This document shows, one piece after another, positions 9,992 to 37,792 of a DNA stretch of 39,359 bases. Source of the DNA: an uncultured Saprospiraceae bacterium (GTDB lineage: Bacteria; Bacteroidota; Bacteroidia; Chitinophagales; Saprospiraceae); NCBI GenBank assembly GCA_937923465.1, contig CALDUB010000222.1:1-39359 (forward strand), in the 5' to 3' direction. The number at the start of each line of letters is the position of its first letter. Position 1 is the stretch's first letter. Under the pieces are notes generated by a model that was not told the DNA's origin, ran no database searches, and saw only the letters and a program-made list of their open reading frames with translations. Both the position numbers and the translations under genes were made by a program.

Positions 9992-11632
9992 TTACCAACT
10001 CTTCCCTAGCGTCTCATCCAATTTCGTCACACGCACATCTACTCGACGGTTTTTACTGCGACTTTCTTCCGAGTCATTCGCTGTCACAGGTTTTGCACCA
10101 CCCAAACCGACCGCTTCGATACGTTCAGCACCAATACCTTCATTTATCAAGTATTCTCGAACAGCCTTTGCGCGGTCTTCTGACAGTCGACGGAGTTCAT
10201 TGGCTTTACCATTATTATCTGTGTGTCCCTCTACCATGATTTCCATAGTAGGATATTCTTTTAATAAATCTGCAAGTTCATCTAATGCATTAAAAGACTG
10301 TCGCATTATCAATGCCTTGGACCGTTCAAAGTAAATAGGGTCAACACTAACCTGAGCGTTTAATTCCATAGGGTCGAGGATTAAATCAAATTCATAATCC
10401 TTAAAATAGTAAAAGTCTTTTTTGAACATCAAGCGACGTGGGTGCGCAAAGAAACCTTCTTTTTGAGCAACAAATTTATGTTCCTCTCCCTTCCTCATCG
10501 TTACCCTAAAAGTCCCGTCAGCAGAAGCATAAAAACTCTTGTAGTTTTTTGCGGTAGAAGGACCAAAAAATAACTTTGCAGGAATAATATCTCTAGTCGC
10601 AGAATTAATAATGCGTCCTTTGACAGTTATTTCTGTTTGAGGCTGAGGGTCTTTAATGCCTACTCTAAAGATGTCACTTGTACCATCACGTGTTGAGGTA
10701 AAATATAGGAAACCAGTAGCTGCATTAAAGTAAGGTTGACTATCGTCTGCTGATGAATTAATCGGAGCTTTGAAGAGAGAAGCCGTTGACCAATTTTGCC
10801 AAGATTCATCTAATCTTCTAACCGAGTAAATATCATTTCCTCCTAAACCTGGGCGATTAGAAGAAAAATAAAGCGTCTTTTTATCTTCTGAAAGTTGAGG
10901 AGTCGTCTCGCGATAGTTAGAATTAACTCCAATTCCTAAATTTTTAGGCGTACTCCATTTTTGTTCTCCCTCTTTAAAAGAAACATATAGGTCATTAGAA
11001 CCGAAGCTATCTTCTCTTTCTACCGATAAAATTAAAACCTCCCCGTCTGTACTCATCGTAAAGTTGACTTCTTCACTTTGTGTATAATAGTTTCCGATAA
11101 ATATAGGTTCTGGAAAAGACCAAGTTCCGTCGGCGTATAAACGTGTCCGCGAAAAACCTTGGCTCATACCACCTTCCTTTTTGAATTGATTGATAATAAT
11201 AAATTCATCTGGCTCAGGTGTCAAGGCACAGATGCTATTAGGCAATGCATTATTTAATGGCATGCCTGGATGATAGACATAATCAAAATAATCATCGACA
11301 CTCTCGGCGACCCATATATCCTGATTAAAAACAGAATTTGTCGGATTGTTGATATGCGTACCGGATAAGTCTGCATAAGCCTCTCGCAATTTTGCATCGT
11401 ACTGTGCAGGTGCCGTTTGACTCACATCTTTACCATTAATAAGTAAGGTTCTATTAAAGTTAGGATGAGAAACTATGGTATAGTAAAGTGTCTTTCCGTC
11501 ACGGGACACGACTGGCGAAATCTCATTATACTGAGAAGAATTCACTTTTGCATTCAATTTTTCAATCCGCATTTTTTGCGCAGATAGATTAAATGAAATA
11601 AAAAAGAAAAAGAATAGGTGTAATCGGAACAT
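9992..11632 (-). CDS. OmpA-family protein with PD40 propeller and CRD (PorE-like)
   Basis: The 546-residue exported protein begins with a hydrophobic signal peptide ending NLSAQ. A beta-propeller of PD40/TolB-like blades follows (about 35-330), with recognisable repeats such as SRDGKTLYYT, SEDKKTLYFSSNRPG and YFTSTRDGTSDIFR. A carboxypeptidase regulatory-like domain comes next (about 334-420, VKGRIINSATRD), then an OmpA C-terminal peptidoglycan-binding domain (about 430-540, MVEGHTDNNGKANELR and SKNRRVDV). The architecture matches PorE-type proteins that anchor the T9SS to peptidoglycan, but it lacks the N-terminal TPR of PorE. Many paralogues of this design exist, so the PorE link is only a suggestion. 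It is monocistronic. Confidence 0.9.
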   Translation of the reverse strand: MFRLHLFFFFFISFNLSAQKMRIEKLNAKVNSSQYNEISPVVSRDGKTLYYTIVSHPNFNRTLLINGKDVSQTAPAQYDAKLREAYADLSGTHINNPTNSVFNQDIWVAESVDDYFDYVYHPGMPLNNALPNSICALTPEPDEFIIINQFKKEGGMSQGFSRTRLYADGTWSFPEPIFIGNYYTQSEEVNFTMSTDGEVLILSVEREDSFGSNDLYVSFKEGEQKWSTPKNLGIGVNSNYRETTPQLSEDKKTLYFSSNRPGLGGNDIYSVRRLDESWQNWSTASLFKAPINSSADDSQPYFNAATGFLYFTSTRDGTSDIFRVGIKDPQPQTEITVKGRIINSATRDIIPAKLFFGPSTAKNYKSFYASADGTFRVTMRKGEEHKFVAQKEGFFAHPRRLMFKKDFYYFKDYEFDLILDPMELNAQVSVDPIYFERSKALIMRQSFNALDELADLLKEYPTMEIMVEGHTDNNGKANELRRLSEDRAKAVREYLINEGIGAERIEAVGLGGAKPVTANDSEESRSKNRRVDVRVTKLDETLGKSW

Positions 11633-11912: not shown

Positions 11913-12431
11913 ATGAAGATACTACAAGAATATACAATACCAATCAGCGGCTTAAAAGAAGGCGTGCATCAATTTGATTTTCAAATAGATGATACATTTT
12001 TTAAGCACTTCGAAGCTTCTCCAATCGAGAAAGCCAACCTTAGGGTTGATTTCTATTTTGATAAGCAGCACGGGATGTATGTTTTAATCTTTGAAGTAGA
12101 CGGAAAAGTTTCAGTTGAATGCGACTTATGTTTAGAACAATTTGAAATACCTGTACAATCATCTAATACGCTGATAGCAAAATTTGATGCTAGCGAAGCG
12201 GACGATGCAGAGGTTATTCATATTCCACGAACACAAATTGAAATCAACATTGCAGAATTCATTTATGAATTCATTGTTCTTTCTATTCCTCTTATGAAAA
12301 AACACGAAGACGCAGGCGAAGAATGCCCGGAAGACGTTTTTGAATATTTGGACAAACAGGAAGATACCGCAGATGAAACACCAAATAATAATCCTTTTTT
12401 AGATGCTTTGAAAAATTTCGAAGATAAATAA
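11913..12431 (+). CDS. DUF177/YceD family protein
   Basis: The 172-residue protein has the DUF177 signature: a CxxC pair in VECDLCLEQFE near residue 70 and a C-terminal acidic region with EECPEDVFEYLDK, ending NPFLDALKNF. Members are encoded next to rpmF almost everywhere, and YceD is linked to 23S rRNA metabolism and ribosome assembly. Here rpmF follows 113 bases downstream in the same direction, which supports the call. The start at MKILQE is chosen because the earlier in-frame ATG would overlap a plausible promoter and adds a non-conserved extension. Confidence 0.9.
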   Translation: MKILQEYTIPISGLKEGVHQFDFQIDDTFFKHFEASPIEKANLRVDFYFDKQHGMYVLIFEVDGKVSVECDLCLEQFEIPVQSSNTLIAKFDASEADDAEVIHIPRTQIEINIAEFIYEFIVLSIPLMKKHEDAGEECPEDVFEYLDKQEDTADETPNNNPFLDALKNFEDK

Positions 12432-12544
12432 AAGAGTAAAATTATAATCGCTTCGGCGAATAGAAAATATTTTTTTAGACGACCGGTAAAGGCAATTCCA
12501 ACGACTAACAAAGTCGGTTTTTATCGGATAAAATTTGTGACAAA

Positions 12545-12733
12545 ATGGCACATCCTAAGAGTCGGATTTCAAAGCAACGCAAGCGCAAACGTCGTACGCA
12601 CTATAAAGCTACGCACGCGCAAATCGCTACCTGTGCAACTACAGGAGAAAAGCACCAATACCACCGTTCTTACTTCGATGACGAAGGGAACATGTACTAC
12701 CGTGGTAAGGTCTTAATTGGCGCAGAAGAGTAG
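12545..12733 (+). CDS. rpmF: 50S ribosomal protein L32
   Basis: The 62-residue basic protein starts [20 protein letters not shown], the hallmark of L32, and continues with [19 protein letters not shown] and YYRGKVLIG. Only one of the zinc-ribbon cysteines is present, so this is the zinc-independent form, common in Bacteroidota. It has the right length and sits behind DUF177. A terminator follows 32 bases after the stop. Confidence 0.97.
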
Positions 12734-12765
12734 GCAACTATTCTTTTTCTGCTAAGAAGAAATAC

Positions 12766-12801
12766 AAAAAGCTCTCATCCTTGTTGGATGTAGGGCTTTT
12801 T
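12766..12801 (+). terminator. Terminator after rpmF
   Basis: AAAAAGC/GCTTTTT outer arms and CATCC/GGATG inner arms form a hairpin ending in a T run, 32 bases after rpmF. Confidence 0.8.
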
Positions 12802-12815
12802 GTGTTTGTCATGCA

Positions 12816-12877
12816 GTATCCCGAAACTCCCGTTTCGGAAATACTAGATAGTGACCGAAACAGGAGTTTCGGGATAC
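12816..12877. repeat. Inverted repeat with 23-base arms
   Basis: The left arm at 12816-12838 (begins GTATCCCGAAACTCC) and right arm at 12855-12877 are reverse complements with one mismatch around a 16-base centre. It has no T run and lies beyond the rpmF terminator, so it looks like a palindromic repeat element and not a terminator. Confidence 0.8.
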
Positions 12878-12885
12878 GGTATAAT

Positions 12886-13151
12886 AAAAAGCTGACTGCG
12901 AAATATTTCATTCACAGCCAGCAGACCTAATCTACAAAAATTACTCTTTAGGGAAATATTGTGTTTTACTTTTTGAGTTTTTTGAGGGCACATAAAGTGT
13001 AGGTATATCAAGAGCGAAATTGCTGATATACGCTTCTTACCATTTTGTAGGTGTTAAGAATTTTTAAATCGAATTATGAAGTAGTTAGGAAAAAGCTGAC
13101 TGAGAACAATTAGTCCCCAGCCAGCAGACCTAATCTACAAAAATTACTCTT
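12886..13151. repeat. Pair of ~62-base direct repeats
   Basis: Segments 12886-12948 and 13090-13151 share AAAAAGCTGACTG at the left and CAGCCAGCAGACCTAATCTA onward at the right, ending AAAAATTACTCTT. Their middles differ. In each copy GCTGACTG can pair imperfectly with the CAGCCAGC segment. The rest of the 12734-13300 gap holds no gene; an ACATTTC/GAAATGT palindrome lies at about 13207-13222. Confidence 0.8.
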
Positions 13152-13300
13152 GTGTGTTTCAAGTGTACGTTTCCGCGAAGTTGCGCCCGCCGCAAGCGAC
13201 GGACACAACATTTCGGGAAATGTTAATTCTAGAAATTGATAATTATTAATTAAAATTTGAGAAGTAAAGACCTCTCTATTTTTCAATCACCGATTTCTAA

Positions 13301-16300
13301 TTATTTTTGCATCAATGCAGCACGACTCTTAAAATTAGAAACCATTTGCGTCGTAGCTGCTTGCAATTCAAAAGAACCTTCTGGTAATTTAATAATGCGT
13401 TCCTTGTCCTTCATACCTGCTACTTCGATGTTGTATTGTTCGTAGCTAGAGTGGGTACTTAGGATGCCATTCTTGTAGTTGAAGAAGTAATAGTTGCCAC
13501 CAGGAGAAGTCATTAAGACTGTAAATTGGTCTTCGCCATTTGCAGGCATTTTGAATTCTACAGCACCTTTAATCATCTTGTGATAACCCTTCGTTCCAAT
13601 TGCCGCCATTCCATATTCTTTTTTTGAAGAAATAAAAGACTGATAATCAGCATCCCATGTCATTTCTAGTTCTGTCAAGAGGAAATTGAAATCACAATCT
13701 TCTACAGGAATTCCAAATGTATTGCCTTGACGTAATTGCTGTATACTCTGTGGCAATTTCTTCGGGTCACTTACCAACTCTGACAAGACAGTCTCGTAAG
13801 TTTCCACATCGCGATATTGGATTGGACTACCTTCAAAGCTTGCTGATTGAAAATCTACAGCAATCATATTTTTCAACTCTTTTGGTAAACCAAACTCTAA
13901 AGCAACAGCAACTTTCGCATTTAAATTATCATTTGCCAATGCTGCATTTGTTAATTCACCTTCTGGTAAACCAGACGTAATCATACCTATCGTTTGGATA
14001 CTTGGACCTTTTAAATTTGTACCTAAGTTCAAAGTTCCTTTTCCCTTAAGAGAACCGTCATTTTCATTGAAAACCATCAAATTTCCTTTTGCTTCTGGAT
14101 TCATGACTTTCAAACTATCACCAATTATAAACTCTCCTTTTTCTGCATTGTAATAAGTCATACCGTCCACATCTATAAATGCATGGTCTTTGCGACTAGC
14201 CAATGGCATCATCAAACGTGTATAATGTTGACGTGTTTCTTGATTAAGGTAGATACCTGTGTGTACGCGTTGTCCTTCTTTATCTTTTGGTTTGTCCAAT
14301 TCTAAGCGCAAATCATTTTTGTCTGCACGACAATCCACATAAAAATGACGTGGATTAGCTAAGACTGATGATTTGAATTGTGCATATCCCTTGTAACCTA
14401 AATTTGGAGTAGAAGAACGCAATTCAACACCACCCGAAAAATTAAAACCTTGAGCCATTAAGAAAGGAGTGCTTTCACCAACTACAGCTTCTGCAACCGT
14501 TTCGACTTTATTGTCTGTACGTTTACCGACGCGTTGTCCGACGATACTTGTGAATGGAATTTCTTGAGTGACATCACCGACATTGTAATCATAGAAACCT
14601 TTACCTGTGAATTTATCCTTGCTGTGAACTTTGATAGTTGCACGCTTGATTTCGTGGTATTTATTTTCGCGACTGGCAAGAATACGTGCGTCTTTGAGTT
14701 CTTCCATTTGTCCTCCAGGAAGTACGGTCACACTACCTTCACTTGGATAAACAAAAGCATCAGCAGACTCAATAAATGGAACGCCTCCAATATTTAGACG
14801 ACCTGTAGGAAAGTCATATTGCCCCGTTGCACCTTCGAATGTAAGCTCTTTTTGCTTGCTATCTGTAGATTTGAAAGTACCCAGTTTCCCCTCTTCTGCG
14901 ATGAAAGTGATATTCTTTTTACCTAAGTTCCATTCAAATTCATTCAAGCTCGTTTCGTACTGATTGTGTGGCATTTTCGTGATAGCATCTTTGTCATTTG
15001 CTTTGAAACTTCCGAATTGTTTTTCGAAGTCCATAACTCCTGCGACGTTTTTTGTATCGAAAGCCAATGCATCGGTCTCTAATGCTTTAATTTGAAGATT
15101 TGTCGTATCTGCTTCTACCGAATAATGTCCAAAGTCAAATAACTTCGAGTCCATTTCTCCCTCATCCCATTTGAACTTACCTTTTCCTTTCAAACCACCT
15201 GGTGTGTAAATCAAAGTACCGTCAACCGTGTGCTTTTTTTCCGCAAATACATCGAAAGATTTTTCTTTAGACTGCACATACATACTGTCTGCGTATGGCT
15301 GCCAATTGATTTGTACATCTGCACCGTTTACATGTGGCAAACCAGCTGTCTTATCTTCTTCTAAATCAAAATTCTTTGCAGAACATGATAAATTATCTGG
15401 ACGGAAAACAATATCATCTGAACTGATATCTGTCTTTTGATAAGACAAATCACCCTTTCCTTTCAAACCTGCATTACTTAAGACCATATCTCCTTTAAAA
15501 TTTCCTTTCTCTTTGAAAATGTTATATCCTTCAGTCGGCGCAGTCGTCGTGAAACCTAAAGATTTATCTTCTTGTAAGCGTAGCGTTTCTTCAAATTCGG
15601 GGAAAATACCCGCAGTCACCATTTTTCCTTTTAGCTCAAATTGCTCTGGCGTAATCTGACGCAATCCTTGAAAGAAAAATGGCTTCAATTCGAAGAAAAA
15701 TTCGTCACGAGGATAAGCATCTCCTAATTTATTGTCTTGATCATAGAAGACGAAAGAACTACCCTTACTTTTGAAAGAAGGGAAAATTGTCAAGTCTTCA
15801 CGTCCTGATTTATTGGCTGGAGCGTCAATAAGTACGGTACCTGCAGCGTGCTCGATACGTGAACCGATGGCGAAAGCATCACCATTTGGTTGAGGTAGAT
15901 AAAAATCTAAGAAGCGAATAGAATCCGATTTTACCCAAAATTTTTCGTAGTCAAAGTGATATTCCGAACCTGTCAAAGTTGCAAAACCAGCATACAAGGT
16001 TCCGCCAAAATCTACCTTACGATTTTCACCGATATTTAATATTTTACCTGTAGGGACAGCGGCAACTTTTTGACGATTACTAAATTCTACTTGCTTGACA
16101 CCTTTGAGTTTCATTTCTTGTTTGTTGAAATCAATCTCGGCATTTCCACCTCCAACAACTGACTTCATTTTCAAAACATCAAAATCTCTTTTTCCTGCAT
16201 GTACTTCTGCATAACGGAAGATTTTATCATAAACAAGGACACGATTTTCCTTTGGAAAAAAGCGAATAAATCCACTCTCTTCTAAATCAAAAAGTAAAGA

Positions 16301-17782
16301 TTGAATATTCGCAACATCAAAATTAGGATTGAAATGCTTGGCAACGGCGTCTGCACTCAAATCTTTTCCTTCTGCTTGAGCAAGTACCATTAGCTTAACG
16401 ATAGGATTATAATCTGCTACGTTTTGAATACGACGAATGTATTTTTCGCTATAAAAATCTTCTGACTCAATCAAAACGGTCTGGCTACCTGCACCACTTT
16501 TGATACGTGTCTCGTTGACCATTAATTTTTGCTCTAATGGATACCAGTTTAGTTTATCTGTATTGATGTAGACTTGGTGATAAGAGTCAAAAAATGGTGC
16601 TTTTGAAATCGCTTTTTCACCTTTACTCAAGGCTAAGAAATTTCTTTTGATATCTGACTTTGAATTAATACCAGGGTGATAGATAGAATCTTGACCGAAG
16701 TACAAAACAGCTTCCACATTCTTTGCATTGACAAATTCTTCATCGTCTAATGTGAAATAATCTCCTGCTAAGCGATAAGTAACTTTTCCTGTTTTATCGC
16801 GGTGCGTTAAGCTACACGTTTCGCCTTCATTAGCTGAACCTTCAACTTTTACACCTTCCAATTTAAAACCACCCTCGTAAATCAAACCTTCGCCCATATT
16901 AAGAGTTACCGTTTCTTCTCCTGACTGAAAACGTGGGTAAGAAGACTTACGACTTCCGCTGACTGCGAGAATTTTATCTTTAAATTGACCGACTACAATC
17001 TTATTTCCAAAGAATTTAGGGTAGCTTAATTTCGCATTATTTGCTACATAGTGACCATTTGACATGTTGATTTCATAAGTACTCAATTCCGCCTCTGCAT
17101 CAATATTTTTGCTAATGCGACTCCAACTTACAACGCCGCCTTGACCGACCCATTTATTTTGTAAAGGATAGAATATGCCTGAAGTTCCCTTGATAGAAAT
17201 TTCTAAATTTTTCTTGATTGCCGTCAAATCTGTTTTTAAATATTTAATAACAGGCTCGTTTTTTTCCCAGAGAACAGAAGGAGTAGGGGCGGTCGCCGCC
17301 CAATCTATCCCGCCTTTTGCTTTGTGTAAAGCTTTGCCATTAAATAACTGTTGCGAGAAAATGAGATAAGACTTATATTTTCTAAATTCAGCCTTACTCA
17401 AATCTGTCAAGAATTCACCCAATGTCCCATGCCAGTCCATGAAGTTATCCTTGCCGACTTGATTGAATTTTACGACATTTAAGCCCTTTAGGTACTCGGT
17501 GTAGTAGGGCGCAGCAGTCATTTTATTTTCACCCATTTTATTACAGACTTTGACAATCTCGCCAAACTCTGGGTCGGTGAATTTATTATTCTCAATCTGC
17601 CCCGCAAATTGTTCGAAAAGTAAAATGTGGTCTTTATTTTTTGTCCCTTCTATGAAGACTCTAAGCTCATCCAAAAATTCTACCCTGCTGGTGGAAAATA
17701 CCAAGGTCTCTGGATTGTTAAATCCTGAGCAAAGAAGAAAGAGGAAAGCGACAAATGTAATTTTAGAGAGTTTGTGTAACAT
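13301..17782 (-). CDS. Giant secreted beta-rich protein of unknown function
   Basis: This 1,493-residue protein has a signal peptide (about 1-20, VAFLFLLCSGF; no good lipobox) and no further membrane segment or sorting domain. After a helical N-terminal region (about 30-190) it is mainly alternating short beta-strands rich in Gly, Lys, Asp and Phe. The phrase LKGKG recurs near residues 768, 862 and 1244, each followed by a strand pair, which suggests a repeating beta-groove or solenoid. Around residues 455-530 lies a helical, winged-helix-like segment (IQSLLFDLEESGFIRFF). The strand pattern recalls OstA/LptA- and AsmA-type lipid carriers, but that resemblance is impressionistic. I recognise no named family. 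It is transcribed alone, with a long structured upstream region. Confidence 0.9.
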   Translation of the reverse strand: MLHKLSKITFVAFLFLLCSGFNNPETLVFSTSRVEFLDELRVFIEGTKNKDHILLFEQFAGQIENNKFTDPEFGEIVKVCNKMGENKMTAAPYYTEYLKGLNVVKFNQVGKDNFMDWHGTLGEFLTDLSKAEFRKYKSYLIFSQQLFNGKALHKAKGGIDWAATAPTPSVLWEKNEPVIKYLKTDLTAIKKNLEISIKGTSGIFYPLQNKWVGQGGVVSWSRISKNIDAEAELSTYEINMSNGHYVANNAKLSYPKFFGNKIVVGQFKDKILAVSGSRKSSYPRFQSGEETVTLNMGEGLIYEGGFKLEGVKVEGSANEGETCSLTHRDKTGKVTYRLAGDYFTLDDEEFVNAKNVEAVLYFGQDSIYHPGINSKSDIKRNFLALSKGEKAISKAPFFDSYHQVYINTDKLNWYPLEQKLMVNETRIKSGAGSQTVLIESEDFYSEKYIRRIQNVADYNPIVKLMVLAQAEGKDLSADAVAKHFNPNFDVANIQSLLFDLEESGFIRFFPKENRVLVYDKIFRYAEVHAGKRDFDVLKMKSVVGGGNAEIDFNKQEMKLKGVKQVEFSNRQKVAAVPTGKILNIGENRKVDFGGTLYAGFATLTGSEYHFDYEKFWVKSDSIRFLDFYLPQPNGDAFAIGSRIEHAAGTVLIDAPANKSGREDLTIFPSFKSKGSSFVFYDQDNKLGDAYPRDEFFFELKPFFFQGLRQITPEQFELKGKMVTAGIFPEFEETLRLQEDKSLGFTTTAPTEGYNIFKEKGNFKGDMVLSNAGLKGKGDLSYQKTDISSDDIVFRPDNLSCSAKNFDLEEDKTAGLPHVNGADVQINWQPYADSMYVQSKEKSFDVFAEKKHTVDGTLIYTPGGLKGKGKFKWDEGEMDSKLFDFGHYSVEADTTNLQIKALETDALAFDTKNVAGVMDFEKQFGSFKANDKDAITKMPHNQYETSLNEFEWNLGKKNITFIAEEGKLGTFKSTDSKQKELTFEGATGQYDFPTGRLNIGGVPFIESADAFVYPSEGSVTVLPGGQMEELKDARILASRENKYHEIKRATIKVHSKDKFTGKGFYDYNVGDVTQEIPFTSIVGQRVGKRTDNKVETVAEAVVGESTPFLMAQGFNFSGGVELRSSTPNLGYKGYAQFKSSVLANPRHFYVDCRADKNDLRLELDKPKDKEGQRVHTGIYLNQETRQHYTRLMMPLASRKDHAFIDVDGMTYYNAEKGEFIIGDSLKVMNPEAKGNLMVFNENDGSLKGKGTLNLGTNLKGPSIQTIGMITSGLPEGELTNAALANDNLNAKVAVALEFGLPKELKNMIAVDFQSASFEGSPIQYRDVETYETVLSELVSDPKKLPQSIQQLRQGNTFGIPVEDCDFNFLLTELEMTWDADYQSFISSKKEYGMAAIGTKGYHKMIKGAVEFKMPANGEDQFTVLMTSPGGNYYFFNYKNGILSTHSSYEQYNIEVAGMKDKERIIKLPEGSFELQAATTQMVSNFKSRAALMQK

Positions 17783-17809
17783 GATTTTTTAATTTGTAGA
17801 TTAGAAATA

Positions 17810-17928
17810 GGCATACCTCTCCCATTAGGAGATGTGACGACATGCCTGTATTTATGATGTTATAATTAGAGTTTCGTTATTTGTAACTATGCATAGGAGT
17901 CTTGTTAGGATGCATGCGCACACATCCT
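17810..17928. other. Two hairpins upstream of the giant gene
   Basis: GGCAT (17810-17814) pairs with ATGCC (17842-17846) enclosing a CTCC/GGAG stem, and AGGATG (17907-17912) pairs with CATCCT (17923-17928). On the reverse strand they would lie in the leader of the giant gene, 28 to 146 bases before its start codon. Confidence 0.5.
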
Positions 17929-17945
17929 CTATCTCAATTTGTTTC

Positions 17946-18387
17946 ACGATATTTTAATGTTATTTTTAAATTCAGAACATAGTAATCCCGTCAATAATGA
18001 AACATCATTATAGCAATAGAAAATAAGCATCCCAATCTCAGCCGTACTATGGTGAGTACAGAAGACTTAATGCACTTATGATATTCACTTGAAAATTTAC
18101 GATATTTTAATGTTATTTTAAATTCAAGACATAAGAAGCCTGTCAATAATGAAACATCATTATAGTAGTAGAAATCAAGCATATCAATCCCAGCTGTACT
18201 GCGGTGAGTACAGAAGAATAGTGCATTTTTGATATTTGCTTAAAAATTTACGATATTTTAATGTTATTTTTAAAGATTAGACATAGATATCCTATCAATA
18301 ATGAAACATCATTATAATCATGAAAAATTGAGCATACCTATCCAGTCTGTGCTACAAGTAGTACAGAAAAGAGGTAATCCAGCATTG
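17946..18387. repeat. Three tandem ~150-base structured repeats
   Basis: Copies begin at 17946, 18099 and 18250, each opening ACGATATTTTAATGTTAT. Every copy contains a hairpin ATAATGA-AACA-TCATTAT (17994, 18146, 18298) and a second stem of the CTGTACT/AGTACAG type (18042, 18194, 18347). Copies diverge elsewhere, yet the stems persist; the third has a G-T pair in place of A-T. No copy encodes a plausible protein. The remainder, 18388-18835, holds no gene that I can see, only the word GCTAAGTAAGGG shared with 5475-5486. Confidence 0.85.
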
Positions 18388-18835
18388 TTAGTCTGAGTAT
18401 TTATTTCGGTGAAGTAGAAAGGCTAAGTAAGGGTGTAATCGTAAAAAATCCTTACAAGTCTTTATTTAATAGTAGATTAGGAATTTAAAAAATATTAATA
18501 CGTTTTAAGTATTGATATTGTAAAGCCATTCACTACACATGAAATTCATCAGACAGAAATCGGTTTATTTAAAATGTAAGTCCAAAAGAAAAATTAAATC
18601 GGAATATATAGGCACGAGCCATATACAGGAGAGCGACAAGTCAATGTAGAAGATTTTCAGAAAAGTCTTTTAATGGTTAACTGAAACAACTAATTAATTT
18701 GAGAAACTCTGTACAAAAGCATTAAATGAGAGGAATACTTTCACTTTGTTGCTGAGGCTAAAATATGCCTATATGTTTTGGTATAATAGTTATTGAGGTA
18801 CAAATTAAAGTCTTTTATATATAAAATACAAATTA

Positions 18836-18873
18836 AAAGAGCCAAATACCTGCATGTTGGTAGTTGGCTCTTT
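18836..18873 (-). terminator. Terminator after porZ
   Basis: AAAGAGCCAA pairs with TTGGCTCTTT, with inner TACC/GGTA, around an eight-base loop. Located 44 bases after the porZ stop; read leftward it ends in CTCTTTTAATT. Confidence 0.8.
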
Positions 18874-18916
18874 CAATTGTAGAGAGAAATGTAGTAAAAT
18901 GGGGATTACTTAAGAT

Positions 18917-21193
18917 TTAATTCATAATTAGAATTTTAGCAACAACTGCGTCTGACTGATTTAGATTGGAAGTGCGCGCACTAAAAACTAAATAAACACC
19001 AGAAGCCGCTCGGCGACCATTGTAATCTTTTCCGTCCCAAATCGCCTGACCACCCAATGCTTGAGTTTCATAAATCAACTGTCCCATTGCATCTGTAATC
19101 TTAATATTGGCATCCGTTGCTAGACCATTAATGGCGATAGGTCCAGTGTATTCAGGTCTTACTGGATTTGGGAATACATTTGGATTTTCGATATTAACAG
19201 CATTACCCGTTGTTGCTTCGCCGCGTAGAGCTTGGATACCTTTGTCGGTTCCGATATAGACTTTTCCATTTTCCCCGTCAATCGCAATGTCGTTTATGAC
19301 ATTATCAAAAAGTGGACTATTGTCTTCACTTAAGTAGACAATCTCATCTCTACCGTCAGGCGATAGCACAAAAACACCACTTCCTGTACCTATCCATTTT
19401 CTATTCGCGCCGTCAACTGTGATGCAGCGCACACTTTCATCTTTTAGTAAAGCGGCGCCGTCACCCTCTACCGTAACAATCCTTTGTGACCCAACACAAT
19501 TAGCGTCGAACGGGTCACCGCATTCAAAAATGATAATACCTTCTTGAGTCCCTACCCACATATCGCCATCCAAGTCTTTCGTAATACAATTAACTTGATT
19601 ACTTTCCAAAACTGAATTTCCTGTTGAGAAAGACTTACATTGATTTTCTTTTTCATCAAAAACTACAAAGCCAGTACTCGCCTGAAGAGATGTCATCCAT
19701 TTATTATCAAAATCATCAATGGTAACACCGATTAAGGTTGTTGAGCTGCAAGAAAAATCTTCCCAACTTCCGTCTGCGCGCATGACAGATATAGGATTTG
19801 CTCCTAAATAATTAGAAACCCAAAGATTGTTTTGACTATCAAAAGCCAGCCCACTGACCCGAGTACGGGTATCATCTCCGACAGCATTATTCATAGATGA
19901 AGTACTGTCATCTATGACACGTAGAGTTTCTCTATCATAGTGAACTAAGCCATCGAAGTAAGAACCAGCATAGACATCGCCAGTTTCAGGATGAATAACA
20001 ATCGGAACAAAATCAGTTATATTGGCTAAAAGAGGTTCTGTATCTCGATTGAATATCGTCCAATTTCGGTCAATGTAAGAGTAAAAACCTTGAGGAAATC
20101 CTAATGGTCCAGAATTGAGTGAAATTCCTCCTGAAGTAGCCCAGAGTTCGCCATTGTAGACTTTTAAAGTATTGTTTCGGACAGAAGGAGGCGAATTTGT
20201 TCTAATAATATTACAATCATCTCCAGAAACAAGGTGATAACCTTCGAAATTATCAGCTATCCAAACACGACCTATCTGGTCTTCCACCGCGTCTAGAGGT
20301 CTTGTCGCACAATTAAACGAAAGTAACTCTGTACTCTCCATATCAAAAACGTATGTTGCTCCTCTGACACTGTTTGACTCATAAGGATAGCCAATAACCA
20401 ATCTATTGCCCTCGGCAGAAAGGAAACCAACATTCAATTCAGGATTACTATGGATGACTTCTGCGCCTACCAGAGGATTTACTTTATACACATTTGTGTC
20501 CACTCCAACATACAATTCATCATTATAAACAGCAACAGCGCCCGCTGAATAATCTTCGGGTAAGCCGCTTTCTGTTCCTAGATACTCCCATTGACCGAAG
20601 GCATCTATAAAAGCATTATTTTCTGAGACACGGTACAAACCATCTTCTGCTGCAGCGTAGATAAAACCATCATATTTACAAATGCCAAAGACTTTGAGTT
20701 CGTTGGTAAAGGTGGTAAATACGAATTCGTTGGTTGCTATATTGATTTCTGAAATACCGTAGTTTGTTCCTAGTAAGAAAGTTTCTTCCCCACTAACATG
20801 AATATCGTAGATGATTTTTTGACCAACTATATTACTGAAATCCTTGATAAAAAATAGAGTTGTTAAATCTCCTTCGTCTGGTACTAAATCAATCACGCCG
20901 TCATCATAAATGACCATTAGGGTCTTTTGTTGCGGATGATATTTAACATTACTAACACCTATATTACTCAGTCCGTCAGTCTTGCTAATCCGCTGCAGAG
21001 GAGAACTTATATCATTTTTGTCGAGTACGGCAACAGAAAGACCTGTTCCAAAATAAATTTTTGAATCACTTTGAGTAACCGATTTTCCACCTCGATAGGG
21101 GAGGTGAGACTCCCATTGGCCAAGTACCAAGTCGTTTTGTGAATGAAGAGAAAAAAAAGAGAGGAAAAGTAAGAGAGTAAGCAAATGCTTCAT
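18917..21193 (-). CDS. porZ: Type IX secretion system protein PorZ
   Basis: The 758-residue protein has a signal peptide (MKHLLTLLLFLSFFSLHSQ) and an N-terminal PorZ-type propeller opening LGQWESHLPYRGGKSVTQ with FGTGLSVAVLD and ISKTDGLSNIGV. A second propeller has two-component-regulator-like blades (DGDMWVGTQEGIIIF, GKVYIGTDKGIQALRG), and a T9SS type A C-terminal domain follows (VFPNPVRPEY to the end). In Porphyromonas PorZ belongs to the surface attachment complex that links A-LPS to cargo; length and architecture match. I start at the ATG at 21191-21193 because it opens the signal peptide; the frame extends 22 codons upstream. nadD ends 116 bases upstream in the same direction. Confidence 0.85.
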   Translation of the reverse strand: MKHLLTLLLFLSFFSLHSQNDLVLGQWESHLPYRGGKSVTQSDSKIYFGTGLSVAVLDKNDISSPLQRISKTDGLSNIGVSNVKYHPQQKTLMVIYDDGVIDLVPDEGDLTTLFFIKDFSNIVGQKIIYDIHVSGEETFLLGTNYGISEINIATNEFVFTTFTNELKVFGICKYDGFIYAAAEDGLYRVSENNAFIDAFGQWEYLGTESGLPEDYSAGAVAVYNDELYVGVDTNVYKVNPLVGAEVIHSNPELNVGFLSAEGNRLVIGYPYESNSVRGATYVFDMESTELLSFNCATRPLDAVEDQIGRVWIADNFEGYHLVSGDDCNIIRTNSPPSVRNNTLKVYNGELWATSGGISLNSGPLGFPQGFYSYIDRNWTIFNRDTEPLLANITDFVPIVIHPETGDVYAGSYFDGLVHYDRETLRVIDDSTSSMNNAVGDDTRTRVSGLAFDSQNNLWVSNYLGANPISVMRADGSWEDFSCSSTTLIGVTIDDFDNKWMTSLQASTGFVVFDEKENQCKSFSTGNSVLESNQVNCITKDLDGDMWVGTQEGIIIFECGDPFDANCVGSQRIVTVEGDGAALLKDESVRCITVDGANRKWIGTGSGVFVLSPDGRDEIVYLSEDNSPLFDNVINDIAIDGENGKVYIGTDKGIQALRGEATTGNAVNIENPNVFPNPVRPEYTGPIAINGLATDANIKITDAMGQLIYETQALGGQAIWDGKDYNGRRAASGVYLVFSARTSNLNQSDAVVAKILIMN

Positions 21194-37718: not shown

Positions 37719-37792
37719 TTGGATTAAGAATCCTTGCACTTACGTACAAGGCTGAAGGCTGTCGTGCCCTTGGCACTTGAAAAGTTTAGATA

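Follow-up and report, generated by a model that had tools for sequence, protein, structure and literature searches.

An unnamed, class-wide family of exported proteins with a probable winged helix inserted in a duplicated beta module

What might a protein of 1,493 residues do for an uncultured Saprospiraceae bacterium when no family in the libraries claims it? The gene lies at positions 13301-17782 on the minus strand of contig CALDUB010000222.1, whose 39,359 nucleotides were analyzed as a whole (the window), and consists of 1,493 codons and a stop with an ATG start. A first-pass annotation had described the product as secreted, beta-rich, internally repetitive and without a recognisable family, had pointed to a winged-helix-like insert near residues 455-530, and had offered a role in the style of OstA or AsmA. 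In the list of 13 open reading frames (ORFs) of at least 60 residues for 12000-19000, the others that overlap the gene had at most 87 residues. Since homologues are full length and open in many genomes, 13301-17782 did not arise as a frame by chance, and the existence of the gene is confirmed.

The lack of a known family was borne out by every library searched. Searched to E 1 in Pfam, E 0.1 in NCBIfam and E 10 in the PDB sequences, the window protein matched no family, nothing was found in PADLOC, and PHROGs gave one match at 0.097 and none below 0.09. When the 31 members of the first alignment were scanned singly, no common family appeared: no Pfam model (E up to 1) matched more than two of the 31, and four NCBIfam models matched one member each. 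Six further members from elsewhere in the class gave lone weak matches only (0.025 and 0.075). No viral contigs were found. The family is also not described in the literature listings found, as far as the opening lines of their abstracts go, which is not proof of undescribed status.

The family proteins are about 1,500 residues long and widespread. A match was found in 47 of 60 relatives, and the one named relative found was a Saprospiraceae metagenome-assembled genome (71%). Of 395 genomes drawn from the class, 324 had a match, partial ones included and usually one per genome, as did 160 of the 197 genera. In a draw from the phylum that required a completeness of at least 90, 14 of 392 genomes matched, and every one of them belonged to this class; the two draws differ in make-up and neither is a census. 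Among the class-draw rows marked as stopping inside, the one examined by its coordinates (G593) reached the gene's own stop. Genomes with and without the gene coexist within some families and genera of the class draw (f25, for example), and the listed f20 genomes, which belong to the window's own order, all lacked it; the gene was therefore probably lost more than once. Across 80 aligned members, 63 columns were conserved in at least 95%. We conclude that the family is real, class-wide, exported and unnamed in the libraries searched.

The window's own genome holds a second copy, with 40% identity over residues 7-1488. A tree of 80 members places the window copy at the end of a long branch, apart from that second copy; as judged from the tree, it is a divergent paralogue within the family. 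Elsewhere, one genome carries a tandem pair of family genes encoding 1,549 and 1,566 residues (L271, 6700-16046), and the gene of the closest relative is broken by a run of 100 N (L003, 11051-11150), an assembly gap.

The architecture of the protein was approached by comparing the 80-member profile with itself in 171 pairs of slices, with reversed profiles as controls. Two pairs stood out: residues 760-827 against 851-917 scored 58.7, and 507-590 against 950-1026 scored 51.5, the highest reversed control being 21.5. With the 31-member alignment the same pairs scored 52.8 and 43.3 (best control 24.7). The second pair belongs to a longer match between residues 337-622 and 876-1080, which scored 52.4 as it stands and 77.8 (96.6%, 178 columns; reversed control 17.3) once residues 442-531 were removed from the first. 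When a 90-residue cut was slid over 49 positions, 442-531 was the best (77.0, median 52.6); this cut had been picked from the self-comparison and tested on the same alignment, so that the scan is not independent of the choice. The duplication was also recovered in 20 members from the window's own order (49.7 after cutting, 37.2 uncut), in the remaining 60, of which nine are also from that order (75.6 and 51.1), and across the 20-member and 60-member sets (55.5 and 65.3). The cut scores therefore indicate that the helical insert entered copy 1 of a duplicated beta module, whereas copy 2 has none. This old duplication, with its insertion in copy 1, is what the present analysis adds; it gives substance to the earlier remark on internal repeats, and the domain map of the family is now clear. 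The features of the window copy are as follows.

17711..17782, minus strand: predicted signal peptide, about residues 1-24 (cut site aligned in 76/80 members; Glu in the window copy)
17213..17710, minus strand: N-terminal region, residues 25-190, predicted helical up to about 150 (hydrophobic moment)
16460..16774, minus strand: putative beta module, copy 1 before the insert, residues 337-441 (self-comparison, cut tests)
16190..16459, minus strand: probable winged-helix domain interrupting copy 1 at residues about 442-531 (model, fold and profile matches, alignment, insertion test)
15917..16189, minus strand: putative beta module, copy 1 after the insert, residues 532-622 (self-comparison, cut tests)
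15302..15505, minus strand: shorter repeat, first copy, residues 760-827, LKGKG at 773 (score 58.7, highest reversed control 21.5)
15032..15232, minus strand: shorter repeat, second copy, residues 851-917, LKGKG at 864 (self-comparison)
14543..15157, minus strand: putative beta module, copy 2, which lacks the insert, residues 876-1080 (self-comparison, cut tests)
13733..13882, minus strand: predicted C-terminal helical stretch, residues 1301-1350 (hydrophobic moment)

The beta-rich character that had been proposed is likely and rests on hydrophobic moments, which were of the strand type in most 50-residue blocks from residue 151 onward and of the helix type at 1-150, 451-500 and 1301-1350, and weakly at 1451-1493. 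LKGKG had been placed near residues 768, 862 and 1244. Three copies are indeed present, at 773, 864 and 1245, a number reached by none of 20,000 composition-preserving shuffles. The first two are equivalent, 91 residues apart inside the shorter repeat, where the family mostly has L-x-G-x-G; the third proved to be a different element.

The insert itself is very probably a winged helix, in agreement with the first-pass annotation. AlphaFold2 was run on residues 447-545 aligned with one relative. The best model had a mean predicted local distance difference test (pLDDT) score of 74.2, with block means of 76-92 over model residues 11-80, and its helices (H) and strands (E) followed the order H-E-H-H-E-E-H. 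The first ten rows returned for it by Foldseek were MarR-type or similar regulators (best E 0.0039). VIA-align gave Z of up to 9.8 (root-mean-square deviation 3.8 over 80), and 62 of 1,000 chains had Z of at least 8. When a profile of this region, built from 31 members, was compared with PDB chains, winged-helix regulators made up the first 11 of 22 matches, the best being transcription factor E (E 0.0023). The segment (65-78 residues) could be aligned in 80 of 80 members, and a profile of the domain gave, with 20 relatives, 18 matches in 16 genomes, all at the positions of family members. Pfam gave less: the best winged-helix model was Fe_dep_repress (3/31 members, best 1.5e-4), DUF1390 matched 7/31 (best 0.0046), and the sole match of the window copy in this region, Enterotoxin_b (0.068), is spurious. 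The full-length paralogue from the same genome had a weak PHROGs match to a DnaD-like loader (0.092) here. In topology and fold, residues about 458-528 thus resemble MarR-type domains; they differ in being apparently exported, nested in a beta module and without a clearly basic helix 3.

Export of the family is well supported by features of the N-terminus. A strongly hydrophobic 12-mer (mean Kyte-Doolittle at least 2.0, within the first 60 residues) was present in 76 of 82 family ORFs, compared with 2 of 50 PrmA and 1 of 34 TpiA proteins. Directly after the predicted cut, Gln occupies the column in 76 of 80 aligned members, and the residue before it is A in 57, G in 13, S in 5 and C in 1. This corresponds, by sequence, to the Q-rule for exported Bacteroidetes proteins, in which Gln is exposed after cleavage by signal peptidase I (PMC10653852). 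The window copy is an exception, and because Glu stands at this place its own cut site is less certain. Beyond residue 60, the highest 19-residue hydropathy was 1.23 for the median member and exceeded 1.6 in 4 of 80; members mostly lack a transmembrane-like stretch. The signal peptide noticed earlier would therefore be of the cleavable type, with a signal peptidase I-like site, throughout most of the family.

Our best guess, to which we give a probability of about 40%, is a beta scaffold facing the periplasm that docks partner proteins through its winged helix. The protein would be located in the periplasm or on the periplasmic face of the outer membrane. A large beta-repeat scaffold would carry the winged helix in copy 1, pointing outward as an arm for protein docking and not for reading DNA, and would hold or bridge components of outer-membrane assembly or of the surface that are typical of the class. 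Since several lineages are without the gene, the protein is presumably useful but dispensable. A bolder version, which we consider doubtful, is that the family is an ancient class-wide envelope part without known relatives, in which a winged helix of the DNA-binding type was recruited for extracytoplasmic docking on a duplicated beta scaffold, possibly as a new assembly or transport component. With some 1,500 residues, usually one match per genome, matches in four of five genomes drawn from the class and no family among the libraries searched, the protein is a good candidate for an unrecognised envelope part in this class. The winged-helix fold is familiar above all from intracellular DNA-binding regulators, and its nesting in an apparently exported envelope protein provides a concrete, testable handle. 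The family definition and domain map would let annotators name the family and experimenters choose constructs.

Several observations weigh against this proposal. The scaffold is something we infer, because no confident beta-fold prediction was obtained. Of the five winged-helix models a single one was good, and the other four had pLDDT 44-49. No Foldseek match had an E value of 0.001 or less, and the 40 rows after the first ten mixed MarR-type, other winged-helix and unrelated proteins, a histone acetyltransferase and a flavin reductase among them. The Z values from VIA-align are of a size that helical models may attain through a common arrangement. Pfam winged-helix models reached 3 of 31 members at best. 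The peak of the insertion scan is wide: cut starts within 386-458 can give 67-77, and starts at 434, 450 and 394 gave 76.8, 71.7 and 72.1. The usual neighbours, PrmA, TpiA and PlsY, are housekeeping proteins and indicate nothing specific. Finally, although the third helix, with a median net charge of 0 and one Lys/Arg, looks unlike a DNA reader, this is weak evidence against DNA binding. That low charge also bears on whether the protein could be a transcription regulator, on the membrane side or in the cytoplasm, with the winged helix binding DNA. Many of the fold matches are regulators, but the signal peptide, the conserved mature N-terminus and the general lack of a transmembrane-like stretch make such a regulator highly improbable.

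Another possible explanation is that the protein carries lipid. The modules would stack into a hydrophobic channel for phospholipid or lipopolysaccharide, and this groove or bridge would function in the manner of LptA or AsmA/TamB, with no detectable relation to them. OstA/LptA and LptD have a beta-taco or groove fold. OstA is exported and beta-rich with repeated strands, and AsmA and TamB are very long, exported and beta-rich; the family protein, exported, long and repetitive with amphipathic strands, is comparable in these last features. We scored family profiles against OstA, LptD, AsmA and TamB sets built from relatives, with reversed profiles as controls. The known relationships were recovered (AsmA-TamB 58.4, 80.5%; OstA-LptD 68.1, 92.4%). 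The family scored 25.3-26.9 against AsmA and 20.2-23.0 against TamB, both below the reversed controls (24.7-33.7). Against LptD it scored 24.4 (controls 23.4, 24.9) and 28.6 (controls 21.9, 22.1), with a probability of 0.8% at best.

OstA was less clear-cut. With 22 OstA proteins the score was 40.3, then 47.9 with 46 family members (own reversed controls 28.3, 32.7) and 39.8 with 80 members; that last value, above its own reversed controls of 33.1 and 34.6, speaks against a full absence of relation. Widening the OstA set from 22 to 51 proteins brought the scores to 30.9 and 26.6 (controls 21.6, 28.3 and 25.9, 29.7), about the control level, and the early signal for a relation to OstA/LptA (PF13100) is thus not robust. 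Comparisons with both sides reversed (40.4 and 35.8) are not usable as controls and were not so used. Profiles of the modules scored 13.6-24.8 against the four sets (controls 14.9-24.7). Four module comparisons exceeded their own controls: the merged module against LptD (24.8; controls 15.3, 14.9) and TamB (24.4; controls 17.5, 17.1), and copy 2 against LptD (24.3; controls 15.7, 15.9) and OstA (24.5; controls 17.1, 18.7), with probabilities of 1.3-1.8% each.

The suggested OstA/AsmA-style membership was therefore not upheld, and comparison with the LptA, AsmA and TamB families gave no confident match to a characterised family. The family protein is also longer than OstA/LptA and the LptD N-terminal domain, and has a probable winged helix. 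AsmA/TamB membership was not supported either, since there is no profile similarity and the cut site, by sequence, is signal peptidase I-like instead of an N-terminal anchor that stays; TamB is anchored in the inner membrane (PMC12045153). Most of 25 relatives already have proteins that would fill the lipid role, namely OstA-like (22), AsmA-like (22) and TamB (25) proteins of their own. AlphaFold2 on residues 640-1255, from an alignment of three rows, gave a pLDDT of 31.7, too low for a usable model of the beta region. The position of the family gene directly before plsY, a gene of phospholipid synthesis, on the same strand in 20 of the 80 copies that have a downstream gene, remains in favour of a lipid groove, which we consider unlikely.

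The surroundings of the gene are otherwise conserved as well. In 50 of 81 copies (more than 900 residues, 80 loci) it directly follows prmA on the same strand, with a median gap of 13 bases; such a conserved place points to a single transcription unit of old origin, though not to a function. The identity of prmA, tpiA and plsY was checked on one member per cluster, which in each case passed the cut-off of an NCBIfam model, and other recurrent neighbours include an ABC permease and a BT_3928 protein. These recurring neighbours are not genes of polysaccharide use, which bears on the idea of a carbohydrate- or peptidoglycan-binding or surface protein with the beta modules as binding domains. Although export and the beta-rich character would fit such a protein, and although GLEYA (0.045) and BNR_assoc_N (0.11) each matched a single one of the 31 members weakly in Pfam, no convincing binding module was found in the 37 members scanned and the copy 2 profile matched no PDB chain at E up to 10. 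A binding protein of this kind is rather improbable.

In the window, the upstream neighbour is porZ, which raises the possibility of an accessory to the type IX secretion system (T9SS). SprA is the translocon of this system, and it was matched in 385 of the 395 class-draw genomes, including 321 of 324 carriers of the family gene; the three other carriers are 95, 85 and 56% complete. The same system is kept without the family gene, however, as SprA was also matched in 64 of 71 non-carriers (counts derived from the carrier and SprA lists, non-carriers being the genomes absent from the former), and shared ancestry alone explains much of the overlap. When 41 loci were clustered by blastp, porZ was a neighbour of the family gene in just two of them, the window and a locus of the same genus. 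No Por_Secre_tail or CHU_C was found in the window protein with Pfam (E up to 1), and no secretion tail with NCBIfam (E up to 0.1). What the family shares with PorZ and other T9SS parts is thus this upstream position in the window and residence with SprA in most genomes; no sequence relation to them emerged, and many genomes with SprA lack the family gene. An essential T9SS role through the porZ neighbour is unsupported, and an accessory one is distinctly unlikely, less likely than either the docking scaffold or the lipid groove.

Other features of the flanking DNA were also noted. Between the family gene and porZ, positions 17783-18916 (1,134 bases) hold no long ORF, and a genome of the same genus has a 604-residue ORF at the matching place. 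Downstream of the gene, at 12886-13151, there are two similar terminator-like hairpins on the minus strand; the flank repeat there is 47 nt long, with 87% identity and copies 203 bases apart. Between the gene and rpmF, at 12805-12888, lies a 34-nt inverted repeat that is 85% complementary with arms 16 nt apart. An OmpA/PD40 protein at 9992-11632 resembles the CHU_0125 and PorE families below their cut-offs, and in 10 loci a larger protein, of about 2,000 residues, which matches the CHU_0125/PorE models more weakly, is encoded a short way downstream of the family gene. Further away, 37732-37777 matched the Acido-Lenti-1 RNA (RF01687) with 39.3 bits, above the cut-off of 37.

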